Shown: positions 206 through 25,699 of the stretch, piece after piece | Numbering within the stretch: the stretch's first letter is position 1 | Layout: every line of letters begins with the position of its first letter | Assembly: GCA_016284355.1 (NCBI GenBank) | Contig: JAEEOQ010000111.1 | Coordinates: 30,991-94,990, forward strand | Direction of reading: 5' to 3' | Source of the DNA: Lachnospiraceae bacterium | GTDB lineage: Bacteria > Bacillota > Clostridia > Lachnospirales > Lachnospiraceae | Length of the DNA: 64,000 nucleotides | Translations under genes and position numbers: made by a program | The notes under the pieces: model-generated | Databases searched by the model: none | The model's input: only the letters and a program-made list of their open reading frames with translations | What the model was told of the DNA's origin: nothing

Positions 206-1537
206 CTATTTTCCCCCTTCCGGTATATCTGCTTCTTCAACACTGTTAAATTTATCCATAAATGCCACATATTCATCTTTTGACTTAAATCTTGGCTTAT
301 AATCCGCCTTAAGACCTTTTGCAAGCTTTGCTCCGTCTTTAAGGAGTCTGTAGGCAGAGATTGCAAATATCTTTGCAGTAAGCACGTACGCCTCATCCTC
401 GTCAATGATGTCAAAATCGCTTTGATGTGTGCCTCCTGTCATGCCGCCTGTGTGAAATGTATATACAGGAAGTAAATGCTGCACATCACCGACATCTGTG
501 GATCCGCCGCTGTGAAATCCGGGGCCGCGCAAGGTAAATGGCTTATCTGTTATCTCTTTTACTCCCTCTACAAGGTCTGCAGGAAATTCCTGAGCTATGG
601 CAGGAAGATAACCCGGCATAGTCTCTATGCGGTATCCTGCTCCAAGTGCAAGAGCCCCTGCTTTAAAGGATCTGTCGGTCTTTTCTGCCGCATCCGCAAA
701 TGCTTCAAGGGTGCCGCCTCTTACGAGAGTCTCTATAACTGCCTCTTCAGGGACCACATTTACAAGGTCTCCGCCCTTAGTAAGGATAGGATGCACTCTT
801 ACGCTGTCCTCATCTCTAAAGGTCTCTCTGTTAAGTGCAAGGGCCTGAAGGCCAAGGCTTGCTGCAGAAAGGGCGTTTATGCCTGCTTCAGGTCTTGCCG
901 CCGCATGCGCTGCCCGCCCCTTTATCTTAATTACCTTTGATACAAAACCATTGTTGCTGCCGGAGCCAAGCTCAATCCCTTTAGCAATGTGGTGAGCAAG
1001 GGCACTGTCCACATCATCAAACGCTCCGATGCGGATAAGTTCGCACTTTCCGCCGCCGTACTGTATGCGTCCTTCCGCTTTAAGGCCATTTTTAAATTCA
1101 ACCTCACCGTATTCTTCGGCAGGTACCGCAAAAAATATGACCTGACCGTCAAGGGCTACCTTAACCTGAGGGTCTGTAAGAGCAAATGCGGCTCCCACTA
1201 CGCCTGCAAGCTGAGCATGGTGCCCGCAGCAGTGCGCCCCTTCTGTTTCAGGGTTTGCATGAGCATGAGAAGGAATACGAAGAGCATCAAGCTCGCCAAT
1301 GAGAGCAAGAGAAAAATTGTCCTTTTTAGCCTCGTTTATATAGGACTTAACGCCTGTTATGGCAAGGCCGCCTTCGGTCCTTTCGGTTATGTTTTGTACC
1401 TTTTCCACAAACTTGCCTGCGGTGCGATATTCCTTATAACCAAGCTCCGCATGATCGTATATATCTCTTGCAAAAGCTATGATCTCATCTTTCCTTGATT
1501 CGATTATCTCTATGATCTTTTGCTCTGTTTTATCCAT
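206..1537 (-). CDS. M20-family amidohydrolase/metallopeptidase (AbgB/hippurate hydrolase-like)
   Basis: A 443-residue cytoplasmic dinuclear metal amidohydrolase of the M20 family. Visible signature pieces are GELDAL (residues 81-86), the metal-binding HCCGHH (102-107) and the catalytic Glu pair in PAEEYGE (about 141-142), followed by a HHIAKG segment and a dimerisation/lid domain. An open TTG lies at 1543, but the GGGGAG Shine-Dalgarno is only 2 nt from it and 8 nt from the ATG at 1537, so the ATG is preferred. The family removes acyl or carbamoyl groups from amino acids. Beside a thiazoline-carboxylate hydrolase homologue it could act on an N-carbamoyl or N-acyl cysteine; that substrate is inference. 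Confidence 0.85.
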   Translation of the reverse strand: MDKTEQKIIEIIESRKDEIIAFARDIYDHAELGYKEYRTAGKFVEKVQNITERTEGGLAITGVKSYINEAKKDNFSLALIGELDALRIPSHAHANPETEGAHCCGHHAQLAGVVGAAFALTDPQVKVALDGQVIFFAVPAEEYGEVEFKNGLKAEGRIQYGGGKCELIRIGAFDDVDSALAHHIAKGIELGSGSNNGFVSKVIKIKGRAAHAAARPEAGINALSAASLGLQALALNRETFRDEDSVRVHPILTKGGDLVNVVPEEAVIETLVRGGTLEAFADAAEKTDRSFKAGALALGAGYRIETMPGYLPAIAQEFPADLVEGVKEITDKPFTLRGPGFHSGGSTDVGDVQHLLPVYTFHTGGMTGGTHQSDFDIIDEDEAYVLTAKIFAISAYRLLKDGAKLAKGLKADYKPRFKSKDEYVAFMDKFNSVEEADIPEGGK

Positions 1538-1558
1538 TATCAATTCTCCCCGTATTAT

Positions 1559-2431
1559 TTATTTTGTATCTCTGCTGTAGTACATATATTTAAGAGGGAC
1601 TCTTCCTGATTTAATGGAACCTGCAGCCGCGTATCCTACCGCAAGATGCATTGCAACCTCAAATTCTTCAGGAAGACCGTAAGCCTCTTTAAACTCCTTT
1701 GCATGTCCGGGGCTGTCAGAGAGCCATACGCTTGTAAGCCCAAGAGCATGGGCCATAAGTCCCATGTGATCTCCTGCTGCCGCGCAGTCAAAGCCTCTGT
1801 TATGAGGTACTCTTTCAGGAAGATCCTGCTTTACTATCCTTGAAGGTCTCTTATCGTAGGCAATAACGATGATCACCGCATTTTCTGTAGATACGTCGCT
1901 CCAGATAAGCTTCTTTTCTTCCTCGCTTCGAAGAACTATAAACCTTACCTCATCAAGATTGCAGCCTATTGGCGCCGCTCTTCCCGCATCGCAGATTGCA
2001 TCTATTATCTCATCAGACACGTACTTATCGCTCCAGCCGGATCTTCCTGATCTTCTGCCCCAAAGGAGCTTGTTTACCACTTTTAGCTCTTCATCTGTAA
2101 AGGGTTCCGGCTGCTCACCAACCTCAGGTATTTCAGGCTTAACACCGTTTCTTATCTGCTCTGCATATTCAAGATATCTTTTTACCCAGAGGATATCATC
2201 ATCTTCTTCAGAGTATCCTCTTGCCTGCCATTCTTCAAAAAGAAGCTTTGCATCAATACCGAAGTTTTCGATGGCTTTTCCTCTCCAGTTAAGGATAGTT
2301 GGGTAAATAGGAACCTCTATACCGTGATGTGTTCTTTCGTGAAGCGCTCCGCGAAGAGTGACCTCATCAAATTTTTTAAGATCTTCCCTTGTATAAAACT
2401 CGCCGCCAATCCTGGCTCTTTCTTCTGACAT
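1559..2431 (-). CDS. Nitroreductase family flavoprotein
   Basis: A 290-residue protein whose C-terminal two thirds match the FMN-dependent nitroreductase fold: RRSGRSGWSDKYV followed by a helix ending in AGRAAPIGCN (FMN phosphate region), then FIVLRSEEE, a DCAAAGDHMGLMAHALGL helix and a VGYAAAG strand. The N-terminal ~110 residues are an extra region (THHGIEVPIYPTI and an acidic helix) not in short nitroreductases. GGGAGG sits 7 nt before the ATG. Substrate unknown; the operon suggests it reduces or conditions the imported sulfur/nitrogen compound. It lies 21 nt upstream of the M20 gene and 30 nt downstream of the ATC-hydrolase-like gene, so it is surely cotranscribed. Confidence 0.85.
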   Translation of the reverse strand: MSEERARIGGEFYTREDLKKFDEVTLRGALHERTHHGIEVPIYPTILNWRGKAIENFGIDAKLLFEEWQARGYSEEDDDILWVKRYLEYAEQIRNGVKPEIPEVGEQPEPFTDEELKVVNKLLWGRRSGRSGWSDKYVSDEIIDAICDAGRAAPIGCNLDEVRFIVLRSEEEKKLIWSDVSTENAVIIVIAYDKRPSRIVKQDLPERVPHNRGFDCAAAGDHMGLMAHALGLTSVWLSDSPGHAKEFKEAYGLPEEFEVAMHLAVGYAAAGSIKSGRVPLKYMYYSRDTK

Positions 2432-2461: not shown

Positions 2462-3163
2462 TTATAGTTCGGGGCTGTTTATATTAAAATTTACCTTCTC
2501 GTATTTTAAAAGTTTTTCTTTGGCTTCTTTACCGTAGTCTTTTTCTATATCGTCTAAGACTTTTTTGGCTACGGTCTCACCCTCTATGCCAAAAATCCCT
2601 ATGCTGATCTCCCTGTAAGACCAGTAAGAGTGTGCGCAGTGATAAGTAAAACTCTTTAGCCCGTCCTCTTTTTTAAGAGGTCTGCCGCCTTCAGTAAGGC
2701 CTGAGTTTTCCACCCTCTGGATACAATAATCATGATCGTGAAGTGTCTGAGTCGTACTGTACTTTATCTCAGGACTAAACCCTCTTGCTATGGAAGGGTC
2801 AAGATTGCTGCAATAAGCCACTCCTGCCTCCGGAAGGTTCATTTCTTTAAACTGCGCTGCCCAGGGGCATCTTGTTACGTGTATCTCGTAATCAGGTGAA
2901 ATGCTTATGCTTTCCGACTGGTTAGACTGCCCTAAATCTTTTATTTCTTCCGTATTTACCCACTCGCCGTACCTGCGGTAAGTTTCGTATGTAAGCGGCT
3001 CCCCGTCTGCTATGGCACGAAGCGCCATTCTCCTTCCGCGCTGCTCTGCGTAATACCTTGTGGCAAATATAAAAGCCTCGATTCCCCTGCTCCCAAACTC
3101 ACTTTTAAGGTAAACGTAGTATTTTGCAGCTATGTAGGCATGAACTTTTTCGTTAAATCCCAT
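2462..3163 (-). CDS. L-2-amino-thiazoline-4-carboxylate (ATC) hydrolase family protein
   Basis: A 233-residue protein that matches the PF14196 pattern: VTRCPW (Cys99), EAGVAYCSNLD (Cys118, Asp122), ARGFSPEIKY, and TQTLHDHDYC (Cys147). In Pseudomonas the founding enzyme opens the thiazoline ring of ATC to N-carbamoyl-L-cysteine, which a second amidohydrolase converts to cysteine. Here an M20 amidohydrolase lies in the same operon. The start is supported by AAAGGGG 7 nt before the ATG. The Cys-rich attenuator upstream of the operon agrees with a cysteine-yielding role. Many PF14196 members are only distantly related to the characterised enzyme, so the exact substrate is unproven. Confidence 0.8.
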   Translation of the reverse strand: MGFNEKVHAYIAAKYYVYLKSEFGSRGIEAFIFATRYYAEQRGRRMALRAIADGEPLTYETYRRYGEWVNTEEIKDLGQSNQSESISISPDYEIHVTRCPWAAQFKEMNLPEAGVAYCSNLDPSIARGFSPEIKYSTTQTLHDHDYCIQRVENSGLTEGGRPLKKEDGLKSFTYHCAHSYWSYREISIGIFGIEGETVAKKVLDDIEKDYGKEAKEKLLKYEKVNFNINSPEL

Positions 3164-3187
3164 CTTATGTCCCCTTTCAAAGGCATA

Positions 3188-3970
3188 TTAAATGATATAT
3201 TCTTCGTCAGAAGCTTCTTTGCCTCTGCTGATATCTGCAATAATATCCGCCGCATATCTTGAAAGGGCCGCATCGGTCCTGCTTCTTGGAAATCCCACAT
3301 TTATCCTGTATTCGGATAAAATGCGACCCGGTCTTGGAGTAAGTACTATTACTCTGTCTGCAAGATATACCGCTTCGTTAATGTCATGTGTTACAAAAAA
3401 GAAGGTCTTCTTTTCCTTTTGTCTTATGTTAATGAGCTCCTCCTGAAGCGTGCATCTTGTAAGATGGTCAACTGCAGAAAAGGGTTCATCCATAAGTATT
3501 ACCTTTGGCTCTGCTATAAGGGTTCTGGCGATCCCCGCGCGCTGTCTCATACCGCCTGACAGCTGCGCAGGATATTTGTTTTCAAATCCCTTAAGCCCCA
3601 TAAGATCAAGATAATAATCAAGTCTCTTCTCTTTCTCTTCTTTTGTTACTTTGGTGTTTTCAAGTCCGAATAAGATGTTTTTCCTAACGCTTCGCCAAGG
3701 GAAGAGGGCTGCATTTTGAAAAACAACCCCTATTTCCCTGCTTGGCCCTGTTACCTTTTTGTCTCCGATGTAAACAGTGCCGCTGCTTTCCTTTAAAAGG
3801 CCTGCCACGATCTCAAGAAGAGTACTTTTTCCGCAGCCTGAAGGACCAACTATGCAGACAAATTCGCCTTCTTCAATATCAAGATTAACGTCAGAGAGGG
3901 CTTTTACCTCCCCTGCCTCATCCGGATCATCGTAAATTTTATCTATACTTTCTATCTTTATAGCCGGCAT
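3188..3970 (-). CDS. ABC importer ATPase, nitrate/sulfonate/taurine (SsuB/TauB) type
   Basis: A 260-residue ATP-binding subunit. Walker A GPSGCGKST at residues 42-50, ABC signature LSGGMRQR at 137-144, Walker B VILMDEPF at 157-164, and the switch histidine in FFVTHDI. The overall pattern, including PGRI near the C-terminus, is that of ATPases for nitrate, sulfonate, taurine or thiamine-precursor importers. GCGAGGT lies 7 nt before the ATG. It sits between the binding protein and the ATC-hydrolase-like gene and works with the permease at 5152-5925 at the inner face of the membrane. Confidence 0.92.
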   Translation of the reverse strand: MPAIKIESIDKIYDDPDEAGEVKALSDVNLDIEEGEFVCIVGPSGCGKSTLLEIVAGLLKESSGTVYIGDKKVTGPSREIGVVFQNAALFPWRSVRKNILFGLENTKVTKEEKEKRLDYYLDLMGLKGFENKYPAQLSGGMRQRAGIARTLIAEPKVILMDEPFSAVDHLTRCTLQEELINIRQKEKKTFFFVTHDINEAVYLADRVIVLTPRPGRILSEYRINVGFPRSRTDAALSRYAADIIADISRGKEASDEEYII

Positions 3971-3988: not shown

Positions 3989-5095
3989 TTATTTGCTTTC
4001 AGGATCTTTAAGTCCAAGTTCTTCTGCTGCCTTAAGTGCGAACTCATTTGTATACGTGCCTTCCGGAGTAACGTTTTCTTCAATCCATCCGTACTGTTTT
4101 AAGTATTCAAATGTCTTCTCAAGTCTGTCTTCAGGAATGACAGGATAATCAAGCCATACGTCGATCTCTGAAAGAACTGCCTCACGAAGTACGTCTTTGT
4201 CTGTGTTAAGGTACTCACTTCCCCACTCGATAAACTCGTCAAAATACTCATTTTTAACCTGCTCATGTACTTTGTAGTATGCAGTAATAAATCTCTGAAG
4301 GTCTTCAGGCCTGTTCTTTATCACGTCATCACTTGCCATAAGAGTTCCGGTGTAATAGTCAGGAATGAAATCCCAGGCTCTTCCAAGAACATTTCCAACG
4401 CCTTCTACTTTTGCAAGCTCTGCATACGGGTTATGGATAATAGTTGCATCAACTTCGCCTGATGTAAGTGTTGCGTAGGCTTTCTGATATGAACCGTTTG
4501 CAATAAGCTCAACCTCATCTTCTTTAATACCGTTTGCTTCAAGCATCTTAAGTACTGAAAGTCTCATTCCGCCTGATGCACCCGATGTACCGATCTTTTT
4601 CCCGCGAAGGTCCTCAAAACTCTTTATATCATTATTTGCTATAAGCCAGTAGCATCCTGAATATCTCCACATATTTCCTACAAGTTTTGCAGGAACGCCG
4701 TTATTGATACCTGCGATAAATGCGCTTGGATCACCATCAGTGATATCTATCTCACCTCTTGTTATAAGAGAGAGTTTACCCTGTGAACCATCTGCATTCT
4801 GAACGTTGTCAAATTCAATACCAAGTTCCTTGTATAGACCTTTTTCAATAGCAAAGTTGTTTACCGCGCCTGTCATACCTGTTGCAAAGCTTGAATTAAA
4901 TCTGATAACGGGAAGTTCCCCATCTGCCTTAGAGCCTGAAGCATTTTCGCTTACTGCAACTGTTTTTGTCTGCTCAGTACTCTTTGCACTTTCGTTTTTA
5001 TCTTCTTTTTTTGCACTGCCGCAAGCTGCAAGAGCTCCTATGGTTAATGCGGCGATAAGTCCAAGTACTGTTATCTTGTTAAATATTTTCTTCAT
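3989..5095 (-). CDS. ABC importer substrate-binding lipoprotein, TauA/SsuA/NMT1 type
   Basis: A 368-residue secreted lipoprotein. The chosen ATG at 5095 begins MKKIFNKI with an n-region, hydrophobic core and an ALAAC lipobox, and has AAAGGAA about 8 nt upstream; the longer open frame to 5143 would put 16 charged residues before the signal and is rejected. The mature part shows the type-2 periplasmic binding fold of the NMT1/TauA family (IRFNSSFATG, ITRGEIDITDGDPSAFIAGI, GKKIGTSGASGGM, SGEVDATIIHNPY). It captures the ligand for the permease and ATPase encoded on either side. The ligand is not readable; the operon suggests a small sulfur- and nitrogen-containing compound. Confidence 0.92.
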   Translation of the reverse strand: MKKIFNKITVLGLIAALTIGALAACGSAKKEDKNESAKSTEQTKTVAVSENASGSKADGELPVIRFNSSFATGMTGAVNNFAIEKGLYKELGIEFDNVQNADGSQGKLSLITRGEIDITDGDPSAFIAGINNGVPAKLVGNMWRYSGCYWLIANNDIKSFEDLRGKKIGTSGASGGMRLSVLKMLEANGIKEDEVELIANGSYQKAYATLTSGEVDATIIHNPYAELAKVEGVGNVLGRAWDFIPDYYTGTLMASDDVIKNRPEDLQRFITAYYKVHEQVKNEYFDEFIEWGSEYLNTDKDVLREAVLSEIDVWLDYPVIPEDRLEKTFEYLKQYGWIEENVTPEGTYTNEFALKAAEELGLKDPESK

Positions 5096-5151
5096 TTTAT
5101 TATTCCTTTCGATTTTGAGATTATTGTCTTTTTTATCCGGCATTTATCGGT

Positions 5152-5925
5152 TTATTTTTTTATCCACCTGTGAGTGAAGGTATATTCCGTAAGAGCTACA
5201 AGTTTTACAAGTAATACGGATATAACTGTTACTATCACTATCACAAGGAAAATTCGTGGTGTATTTAAAAGCTGCTGTGATTCTGCAAGCAGGAAGCCAA
5301 GTCCTGCCTTTGCAGACTGCATCTCCGCAAAAACCACTGTAGTCATTGCTGTTGCAGCCGCCATACGAAAGCCGTTAAACATTGAAGGCAACGCCGCCGG
5401 CACCAGCACTTTAAAAACTGTTTCAATCTTGTTTAGCTCAAAAACCCTTGCCACCTTTAAATACTCGTTAGGGCACTGCTTTGTTCCTGTTACGGTATTA
5501 TAAAGAATCTGAAATACCGATGATAAAAATATCAGGAACACCTTTGATTTAAATCCGATTCCAAACCACAGGATAAGTAGCGGCAGGATGGCTGTTTTTG
5601 GCACCGCCATGATAGCGGAACAAAAAACGTTCATGTATTTTTCAAGTGGCTTAAACAGTGTCCATAAAAGTCCAACCGTAACGCCCACCGCTCCTCCTAT
5701 AACATAGCCAAGCAGAACTTCCTTTAGCGTAATGCCAAGATGTTCAAAAAGAATCCCTTCTTTTACTGTCTTTATAAGGTCTTTAAAGATGCCGCTTGGC
5801 GAAGCAAGAAAGACTTTACTGATCTTCCCGCTTGTAACGGAATATTCCATAAAGGCAAGAAGTGCGATCACGCTTAAGATCTGCAATATGGTCACTATGT
5901 CGACCTTTTTTTCTTTTACTTTCAT
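5152..5925 (-). CDS. ABC importer permease, SsuC/TauC type
   Basis: A 257-residue inner-membrane subunit with about six hydrophobic segments and the EAA loop region (EYLKVARVFELNKIETVFKV, then VPAALPSMFNGFRMA) that contacts the ATPase. A GTG at 5934 is also open, but AGAAGGG lies 8 nt before the ATG at 5925, which is taken as the start. It is the first structural gene after the Cys-rich leader and terminator, so the attenuator controls its transcription and that of everything down to position 1. Confidence 0.92.
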   Translation of the reverse strand: MKVKEKKVDIVTILQILSVIALLAFMEYSVTSGKISKVFLASPSGIFKDLIKTVKEGILFEHLGITLKEVLLGYVIGGAVGVTVGLLWTLFKPLEKYMNVFCSAIMAVPKTAILPLLILWFGIGFKSKVFLIFLSSVFQILYNTVTGTKQCPNEYLKVARVFELNKIETVFKVLVPAALPSMFNGFRMAAATAMTTVVFAEMQSAKAGLGFLLAESQQLLNTPRIFLVIVIVTVISVLLVKLVALTEYTFTHRWIKK

Positions 5926-5950
5926 TTTTATCACCCTTCTTTTAAAGCTT

Positions 5951-5993
5951 AAAAAATAACACCCGGCTTTTGTTTTTCAACTATACCGGGTGC
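5951..5993 (-). terminator. Candidate attenuator terminator in the leader of the sulfur-type operon
   Basis: On the minus strand CACCCGG (5992-5986) pairs with CCGGGTG (5966-5960), followed by a U-rich run (5958-5951). It lies 3 nt after the stop codon of the leader peptide and 26 nt before the permease start. The 5' arm CCCGGT (5990-5985) is also perfectly complementary to ACCGGG (6065-6060) inside the leader reading frame, so an alternative antiterminator pairing is possible. Location plus competing pairing suggest attenuation; no folding energy was computed. Confidence 0.7.
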
Positions 5994-5995
5994 TC

Positions 5996-6127
5996 TTAAA
6001 GCTTCATCTCGTTTGCATGCGCGTGCAAATAGCGCATATAGCTTGAAATGTTTTTCATTCCCGGTGGTATATGCTTCATACAACAACACATGCACATGTT
6101 TGAATTTGTCATAAGTTCCCTTATCAT
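5996..6127 (-). CDS. Cys/Met-rich leader peptide (43 aa), candidate cysteine-responsive attenuator
   Basis: This short frame is too small for routine gene calls. From the ATG at 6127 it gives 43 residues. Residues 11-17 are MCMCCCM, so four of its codons are Cys and eight are Met. A HIPPGM stretch follows and the frame stops with TAA at 5998-5996, right at the base of the terminator hairpin. GGAAGGAG lies 10 nt before this ATG. A second in-frame ATG at 6112 has AAGGG 6 nt upstream and would give 38 residues. The arrangement (promoter, short Cys-rich frame, competing hairpins, transporter operon) matches known leader-peptide attenuators of amino-acid operons; Cys-rich upstream frames before sulfur genes are known in Actinobacteria. 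Translation itself is inferred. Confidence 0.72.
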   Translation of the reverse strand: MIRELMTNSNMCMCCCMKHIPPGMKNISSYMRYLHAHANEMKL

Positions 6128-6184
6128 GTTTTCATTTCTCCTTCCTCTTGCAAAACCAAATTGCAAATGAATCATGTGTCATAT

Positions 6185-6211
6185 ATTATACCTATCAACC
6201 TACTATGTCAA
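6185..6211 (-). promoter_or_regulatory. Near-consensus sigma-A promoter for the leader and sulfur-type operon
   Basis: On the minus strand TTGACA (6211-6206) is followed by TATAAT (6190-6185) with a 15-nt spacer, or by TAATAT two bases further on with 17 nt. Transcription would start near 6178, giving a leader of about 250 nt before the permease that contains the short Cys-rich frame and the terminator. Confidence 0.75.
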
Positions 6212-6242
6212 TAGTTTTATTGATAAAAAAATTTCATGCTCA

Positions 6243-25458: not shown

Positions 25459-25699
25459 TAAAAAAATAAAGTCTCTGCCATAACAGCAGAGACGTATATT
25501 TACCGTGGTACCACTCTGATTCAGATGCATAAACATCTGCACTCATGCGTTCTGTAACGGGAACACCCGCAAGGGACTACTAAAGTTCACCCCTTAAGCT
25601 CCCGGACGAGTTCAAAACCTCCCGCTTACCTGCTTACACCTGCCGCAGGCTCTCTGAAAAGGGGCCGATCTTTACTGCTTCCGTTCGTCGCGATTAACT
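25459..25699 (-). promoter_or_regulatory. T-box riboswitch (leucine) with terminator, leuS leader
   Basis: On the minus strand the T-box core GTGGTACCACG lies at 25514-25504, in the antiterminator context CAGAGTGGTACCACGG. The terminator GTCTCTGC (25471-25478) / GCAGAGAC (25486-25493) is followed by a T-rich run to 25459. Upstream is the stem I region; GAACTCG around 25612-25606 contains the specifier CTC (25610-25608), a leucine codon, in agreement with leuS. Uncharged tRNA-Leu would favour the antiterminator. Confidence 0.92.

Follow-up and report, generated by a model that had tools for sequence, protein, structure and literature searches.

A predicted cysteine-sensing transcription attenuator upstream of a likely sulfur-scavenging operon in a Lachnospiraceae bacterium

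Transcription attenuators of the trp and his type, described by the Yanofsky model, combine a short frame led by a Shine-Dalgarno (SD) sequence, a run of codons for the regulated amino acid, and an RNA arm that is shared by an antiterminator and a terminator. In Firmicutes, tRNA charging is also read out by T-box leaders, which act by antitermination and bind the tRNA directly without translation, and sulfur control in this phylum is usually described in terms of T-boxes, S-boxes, and repressors. The polycysteine short frames of mycobacteria are reportedly leaderless, as the title of a 2020 study by Canestrari has it. Cys leaders without terminators are described for the cys operons of Mycobacterium and Propionibacterium acnes and for cbs of Bifidobacterium longum, and the polycysteine frames of mycobacteria and relatives are there reported to carry Cys codons near the stop, with no terminator found (PMC1262725). 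His leader peptides precede hisS/hisZ in bacilli (PMC2965389). The preliminary description of the locus considered here held that Cys-rich leader frames are described mainly in Actinobacteria; they are indeed found there, but uORFC-8-2 before cysS of Rhodobacterales is likewise a short frame with two tandem Cys codons and a 3′ intrinsic terminator (PMC8632094). No Cys leader from Clostridia was found in the open-licence literature searched.

In what follows, the window is the whole 64-kb stretch of Lachnospiraceae DNA that was analyzed. On the basis of sequence comparison and modeling, it is very probable that positions 6214-5951 of its minus strand act as a transcription attenuator that senses cysteine and controls an operon likely to serve sulfur scavenging. 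The preliminary description had placed a minus-strand promoter, a 43-codon frame with the residues MCMCCCM, a terminator, and a following permease gene in this region, and each was found in its place (Table 1), the parts, their order, and their spacing being directly readable from the DNA.

Table 1. Predicted features of the leader and of the operon behind it in the window
Feature	Position	Strand	Basis or detail
Operator-like box CTATTGACATAGTAGG over -35 hexamer TTGACA (6211-6206)	6199..6214	minus	sequence match
-10 region TATAATAT	6183..6190	minus	TAATAT, spacer 17
Shine-Dalgarno sequence AGGAAGGAG for leader frame	6138..6146	minus	sequence
Leader frame MIRELMTNSNMCMCCCMKHIPPGMKNISSYMRYLHAHANEMKL, 43 codons, stop 5998-5996	5996..6127	minus	ORF translation
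Sensor codons MCMCCCM	6077..6097	minus	Cys codons at 6094-6092 and 6088-6080
Antiterminator 5′ strand A, UAUACCACCGGG; core ACCGGG 6065-6060	6060..6071	minus	sequence, pairing tests, stall model
Terminator 5′ arm B, AGCACCCGGU; partner A or C	5985..5994	minus	fold
Terminator 3′ arm C, GCCGGGUGUU	5958..5967	minus	fold
U tract AUUUUUU	5951..5957	minus	sequence
ABC permease (PF00528)	5152..5934	minus	domain search
Substrate-binding lipoprotein, NMT1/SsuA-like	3989..5143	minus	domain search
ABC ATPase	3188..3970	minus	domain search
ATC-hydrolase-family protein (PF14196)	2462..3163	minus	58.8 bits versus cut-off of 28.1
Nitroreductase-family protein	1559..2431	minus	domain search
M20 amidohydrolase (TIGR01891)	206..1543	minus	domain search

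A promoter scan matched the sequence from TTGACA at 6211 to the consensus at 10 of 12 positions. The terminator hairpin (5994-5958) had a predicted energy of -18.0 kcal/mol with 10 pairs and ran directly into AUUUUUU; a simple terminator scan returned no site; that scan covers loops of 3-8 nt, and the terminator loop measures 17 nt. The whole leader folded with -66.2 kcal/mol (z -4.5), a stability equaled by none of 200 shuffled sequences. As is expected of an attenuator, a short frame with candidate regulatory codons, predicted from its SD sequence and Cys run and presumably translated, lies between the promoter and the first gene; among 203 other short ATG frames that follow an SD sequence, taken from the window and the loci compared with it, just 1 had a Met-plus-Cys share as high. 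Immediately ahead of the leader frame, at 6124-6135, ATG AAA ACA TGA makes up a frame of three codons with a stop that overlaps the leader start codon, a possible coupled start.

The complementarity of ACCGGG (6065-6060) and CCCGGT (5990-5985) was confirmed, the last Cys codon lying 14 nt from ACCGGG (about 15 nt had been claimed) and being followed by 27 further codons. The frame also ends, as described, at the foot of the terminator, its stop codon lying 1 nt before the stem; this distance is 16-34 nt in five relatives and 23-40 nt in 12 class leaders. At a distance of 1 nt, the 5′ arm would lie under any ribosome that halts at the stop, and termination would be hindered; the window leader could work only if, at the moment of hairpin formation, the ribosome were still within the frame or had been released. 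The Pro-Pro-Gly stretch that had been regarded as a possible stall is present, but relatives encode NSRA, FSQA, NLTQA, or GFRS at this place. Given that the stretch is not kept in relatives, a programmed stall was rejected, and by this comparison Pro-Pro-Gly is a by-product of the putative antiterminator strand.

None of the six operon proteins reached an NCBIfam equivalog cut-off. In a Pseudomonas route, an ATC hydrolase and a carbamoyl-cysteine amidohydrolase convert ATC to L-cysteine (PMC10821248), and by analogy with this route a role in sulfur or cysteine salvage or scavenging is likely for the window operon, whose substrate is likewise presumed. The presence of both an ATC-hydrolase-family protein and an M20 amidohydrolase was counted as fitting sulfur control. 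At another locus with this operon (L013), a tRNA gene (3159-3228) lies directly upstream of the M20 gene.

Relatives of the operon were collected by a scan for the binding protein, which gave 23 loci, mostly from Lachnospiraceae and two from Spirochaetaceae/Treponema, and by a family search, which found the protein in 8 of 397 genomes, the window's own included, and added two further loci to make 25 besides the window. Within a class-wide sample, the binding protein was found in 1 of 391 genomes, namely the window's own. A Cys-rich frame followed by a terminator was present at 7 of the 25 loci (L006, L007, L010, L016, L017, L026, and L027) and such a frame without a clear terminator at two more (L024 and L025); no Cys leader was seen at 16, among which L014 and L019 have little or no upstream sequence. 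A survey of 379,010 bases in 29 sequences picked out 30 Cys-dense frames with an SD sequence among 10,339 short frames, a total that includes alternative starts, and 8 of the 9 strongest terminator-like hairpins behind them stood at heads of this operon, in eight genomes including that of the window. In L026, a hairpin of ∼15 pairs (by eye) and a T run lie at 4389-4436, between the promoter and the Cys leader, possibly as a second terminator. The ATC-hydrolase homologue at L003/L029 was rejected as a comparison, as it lies behind a ksgA-like gene (by eye) and without the operon.

The box over the -35 hexamer recurs at other sulfur genes. An exact match to CTATTGACATAGTAGG occurs in the window's own genome at the window site only, and the pattern CTATTGACAWAGTAGG was found in 50 of 328 family genomes, at 59 sites including the window, compared with 4 genomes for the reversed pattern. 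The -35 sequence is CCTATTGACAWAGTAGG in all five leaders found by their MCMCCC codons and ACTATTGACATAGTAGG in the window. Seventeen of the 58 other sites have terminator leaders, three of these with one Cys codon remaining, 6 have leaders with Cys codons near the frame end and no terminator seen, and at 35 no leader was seen. Genes could be called at 56 sites, 28 of them in a cluster of O-acetylhomoserine sulfhydrylases and cystathionine-type enzymes and the remainder comprising 6 binding lipoproteins, 5 cysK-like, 4 sufC-like, 3 nifS-like, and 10 single genes, where each cluster was named from one or two members. Across family genomes, the box is common to cysK, O-acetylhomoserine sulfhydrylase, MetQ-like, and suf genes. 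It is also seen at the -35 position before sufC-, nifS-, Rrf2-like, and other genes.

In the window's own genome, an O-acetylhomoserine-sulfhydrylase-like gene stands behind a box with one mismatch and a cysK-like gene behind a box with two (both genes named by eye), and neither gene has a leader; a further two-mismatch site (L057) lies inside a gene. With up to three mismatches, 19 operator sites were found in this genome versus 49 for the reversed pattern, and since the control there outnumbers the pattern, interpretation was confined to exact, one-mismatch, and two-mismatch sites. The regulator that recognizes CTATTGACAWAGTAGG may be an Rrf2/CymR-like protein; an Rrf2 protein is encoded ∼3 kb from the cysK-like gene of this genome. 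The box over the -35 hexamer is probably a second layer of control that acts on initiation.

Two codon patterns extended the set of leaders. DNA encoding MCMCCC occurred in 8 of 397 family genomes, and the reversed pattern in none; besides the window, five of seven sites are leaders, preceding an O-acetylhomoserine-sulfhydrylase-like gene, a MetQ-like gene, two cystathionine-enzyme-like genes, and a binding lipoprotein gene, and the other two (L048 and L053) are not leader-like. DNA encoding MCCRM occurred at 19 sites in 15 genomes of the class sample (391 genomes), with one site for the reversed pattern, and 12 of the 19, spread over three other families (f53, f66, and f83), are leaders that have a terminator as well as an A strand like those above. 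In total, 37 leaders that combine a Cys run with a terminator were assembled, comprising 8 of this operon (window included), 17 at other operator sites, and 12 from the class sample, where the 17 of 58 and the 12 of 19 were chosen by eye and L111, L114, and L126 were counted despite a single remaining Cys codon in the run. A terminator thus lies before the first gene in 36 leaders besides that of the window. Among the target genes, cysK and O-acetylhomoserine sulfhydrylase scored above NCBIfam cut-offs, and the MetQ-like and cystathionine-enzyme-like genes below. By these sequence resemblances, the window leader is one member of a wider putative class that spans Lachnospiraceae and three or more other families of Clostridia and is tied to the -35 operator.

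A second type of leader, in which the Cys codons (RMCCC, CCCPSCYMCM) lie near the stop and no terminator was seen, was noted at L074, L083, L102, L110, L112, L121, L144, L024 (3018-3113), and L025 (3010-3117). It stands ahead of this operon or of genes that are O-acetylhomoserine-sulfhydrylase-like or encode binding proteins; the L112 frame continues beyond the Cys run. This type resembles the mycobacterial kind, and its mechanism is perhaps translational.

Leaders entered each analysis in different numbers: 37 in the stall model, 30 in the fold without a ribosome (all except L126, L135, L148, L007, L010, L016, and L017), 25 in the test of complementarity, 22 and 17 in those of covariation, and 8 in that of pairing within this operon. 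Taken alone, the A:B pairing of the window is only suggestive, with p = 0.082 for complementarity, 0.12 and 0.15 for pairing, and 0.053 for energy gain; it is the relatives that make the proposed antiterminator pairing convincing. In the class, the usual strand A is CUCCCGGGC, which comes a few nt downstream of AUGUGUUGUCGAAUG, and the usual terminator arm is GCCCGGGAG. The two strands were observed to vary jointly, as CUCCCAGGCA with UGCCUGGGAG in L101 and L108, CCCAAGC with GCUUGGG in L093, UUCCGGU with GCCGGAA in L078, and CGGACGGGU with ACCUGUCCG in L127, and within this operon as CCCUGUA with UACAGGG in L006, GCUGUAUG with CAUACAGC in L026, and CCGGAC with GUCCGG in L027.

Covariation was counted in 22 leaders, none from this operon, the window having been excluded because an alignment of 17 leaders (A1) misplaces its 3′ part. 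In the 22 leaders, 90.0% of cells were paired versus 85.6% in shuffled sets, cells changed on both sides numbered 12 versus 2.1, and pairs with a change 7 versus 1.9. None of 500 shuffles reached the observed values on any of the five measures, and structures slid along the alignment were 23-48% paired, although relatedness may inflate the shuffle comparison and the slide control, which keeps relatedness, favors a structure read off the same sequences. An inner helix, UGGC:GCCA, was present in 83% of cells. In the 17 leaders that include the window, cells changed on both sides numbered 14 versus 5.2 (0 of 500 shuffles) and pairs with a change 7 versus 4.2 (33 of 500). Complementarity of A and B relative to shuffled A gave combined p values of 9e-19 for 25 leaders and 7e-15 for 12 further leaders, values that are not independent because members are related; among the eight leaders of this operon the combined p was 1e-4, and A:B was weak at two class leaders (L142, p 0.27; L146, p 0.32). 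It is via this covariation in relatives that an antiterminator mutually exclusive with the terminator is supported (p 0.08 for the window alone). The check proposed at the outset, that relatives should keep a short Cys-rich frame and both pairings through compensatory changes, was thus positive, the compensatory signal being stronger at other sulfur genes than among the eight leaders of this operon.

A covariance model (R1) was built from the 22 leaders. Its sole match at E ≤ 10 in the 64-kb window was at 6091-5954 on the minus strand (13.9 bits, E 0.064), where the inner helix is not kept. In 45 other loci, R1 matched L135 (2.7e-27) and L027 of this operon (1.5e-16), as well as L126, L111, L076, L093, L144, and L078; among further leaders of the operon it matched L007 (0.022) and, weakly, L006 (0.99), and gave no match at L010, L016, L017, and L026. 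The window leader is, on sequence grounds, a divergent member of the class, a placement for which its position, operator, and codon run count no less than its R1 score. Rfam, including T-box RF00230, SAM/S-box, and other riboswitches, gave no match at the window leader or the relatives scanned, the best chance match at the window leader (E 0.69) being on the opposite strand. With no covariance-model match at these leaders, a known riboswitch or T-box was rejected as their identity. Elsewhere in the window, at 25485-25697 on the minus strand, there is a T-box leader (142 bits).

The influence of ribosome position was modeled by folding the RNA ahead of a ribosome with its A site on a given codon, from a leading edge 13 nt ahead to the terminator loop. 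Over 37 leaders, mean pairing of the terminator 5′ arm with upstream RNA was 0.86 with the ribosome placed at the main run's first Cys codon, fell to 0.73, 0.52, and 0.35 at codons +2, +3, and +5, and was back at 0.45-0.49 at codons +8 to +12. The profile was flat when linkers were shuffled (0.63 to 0.58, with 0.61 at codon +5), and the mean drop from 0 to +5 was 0.51 versus at most 0.08 in 40 shuffled sets. For the window, pairing went from 0.82 to 0.30, a drop of 0.52 that was matched by 1 of 40 shuffles. In the model, therefore, a ribosome on the Cys codons favors the antiterminator and a ribosome beyond them abolishes it, except in L016 and L017, where no step tied to stalling is seen and 20 and 26 of 40 shuffles, respectively, do equally well; the step is small in L007, L111, and L146 (11, 22, and 10 of 40). 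The L016 and L017 leader peptides are nearly identical over 19 residues (SYVFGMQMCSMCM[C/R]GCCTKK), despite showing no step. The claim that a stalled ribosome leaves ACCGGG free to capture the arm is upheld by the modeled step behind the Cys run, but its statistics for the window alone are weak.

Without a ribosome, mean arm pairing was 0.82 in 30 leaders and 0.49 in the window, and by this measure most leaders seem to have no protector (1:2) hairpin, with a partial hairpin in the window. Given that the antiterminator forms without a ribosome in most leaders, the ribosome itself, once past the Cys codons, would be the likely switch; in most members the off-switch is likely to be translation past these codons and not a separate protector hairpin. 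The proposed sequence of events is then as follows. RNA polymerase would transcribe the leader with a ribosome trailing on the short frame. When cysteinyl-tRNA is plentiful, the ribosome would pass the Cys codons onto A and on toward the stop, so that A could not hold B; B would then pair with C, and transcription would end at the U tract. When cysteinyl-tRNA is scarce, the ribosome would wait on the Cys codons with its leading edge just before A, and A could capture B and block the terminator, allowing transcription of the transporter, ATC-hydrolase-like, and amidohydrolase genes. Translation of the frame, stalling at Cys, and termination are presumed to take place in vivo.

In ten leaders of this operon (the window, seven with and two without a terminator), Met is as frequent as Cys, accounting for 44 of 336 codons compared with 47; the Cys enrichment is circular because the frames were picked for Cys, and that of Met is not. 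ATG took up the same 44 of 336 codons in frame versus 10 of 692 in the other frames, and 20 other Cys-dense frames held just 12 Met in 594 codons; Met enrichment is therefore not a companion of Cys density. Met within two codons of Cys exceeded chance (reached by 40 of 5000 shuffles), and in leaders picked by the operator alone Met stood right before Cys in 16 of 17 and within two codons after the last Cys in 14 of 17. In all 30 leaders tabulated, Met occurred before Cys in 29 and after it in 27, although class counts of Met, like those of CGA, are circular to the extent that the search pattern itself specified these codons. The Met counts, and the MetQ-like or homocysteine-making products of some targets, would suit a leader that senses methionine, or slow translation generally, with any stall near the run freeing A. 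We regard this as unlikely, given that adjacent Cys codons are the core in most members, that Met is mostly a single codon on each side, and that initiation itself requires Met.

The Arg codon CGA directly follows the Cys run in 10 of 11 aligned leaders not chosen by a CGA-containing pattern (e.g. L105, L106, and L114); it might be a slow codon that adds to the stall, or serve the RNA. This recurrence, together with the dense Cys and the M-C-C-R-M core, could also be expected if the Cys-rich nascent peptide were itself the sensor, of metal, redox state, or a small thiol, and arrested the ribosome independently of charged tRNA-Cys. Known arrest peptides, however, have conserved sequence ahead of the core, whereas in these leaders what precedes the core shows no conservation between groups and the run itself varies from CC to CCCCC and MCMCMC, which makes a peptide sensor very improbable. 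That the frame encodes a working small Cys-rich protein, with an ordinary terminator hairpin behind it, would agree with the good SD and start, and Cys clusters can bind metal; it is nevertheless highly implausible, as the residues encoded by strand A vary (NSRA, FSQA, NLTQA, GFRS, IPPG) while the terminator pairing is kept, lengths and C-terminal parts differ, and five leader peptides had no match in Pfam or NCBIfam. A chance neighborhood of Cys-rich frame and terminator, to which the weak pairing statistics of the window might point, is scarcely credible in view of the recurrence at the same operon and across the regulon with covariation and of the single R1 match in the window. Cysteine-sensing attenuation is thus the preferred reading.

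If correct, it would add a sulfur-sensing RNA class in Lachnospiraceae and other Clostridia, with a core of M-C-C-R-M followed by an RNA-constrained A strand, covering cysK, O-acetylhomoserine sulfhydrylase, cystathionine-type enzymes, and MetQ-like and other transport genes. The leader could then serve as a signature for naming sulfur uptake operons, and such leaders as simple reporters with which to ask if a single leader can respond to two amino acids and how attenuation proceeds without a protector hairpin. A broader proposal, which we put forward as possible and hold tentatively, is that this undescribed Clostridia class reads both Cys and Met charging in one leader, uses the ribosome as its off-switch, and, through a common -35 operator, gives two-step sulfur control in which uptake, cysK, O-acetylhomoserine sulfhydrylase, and MetQ-like genes change, from one species to the next, between control by the operator alone and control by operator and leader together.

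With the polycysteine frames of mycobacteria the window leader has in common a Cys run in a short frame before cysteine genes; it stands outside that leaderless group in being SD-led, in having a terminator, and in the length of frame after its last Cys, and L024, L025, L074, L083, L102, L110, and L121 come closer to the mycobacterial frames. The tandem Cys codons, the terminator, and the proposed logic are those of uORFC-8-2, which is confined to cysS in Alphaproteobacteria and has two stems, the first of which contains the Cys codons (PMC8632094); here, uptake and sulfur-assimilation genes of Clostridia are involved, strand A follows the Cys codons, and by genes and clade the window leader falls outside that family. 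The His leaders of bacilli offer the same kind of codon-run peptide in place of a T-box in Firmicutes, for histidine and in Bacilli (PMC2965389). A read-out of tRNA charging would be common to T-boxes (RF00230), none of which occurs at these leaders. In comparison with trp and his attenuators, the frame, the codon run, the shared arm, and the biosynthetic or uptake genes behind them are the same, whereas here the codons are Cys (and Met), a 1:2 hairpin is mostly absent, the antiterminator is the default modeled fold, and the frame extends over strand A toward the terminator.
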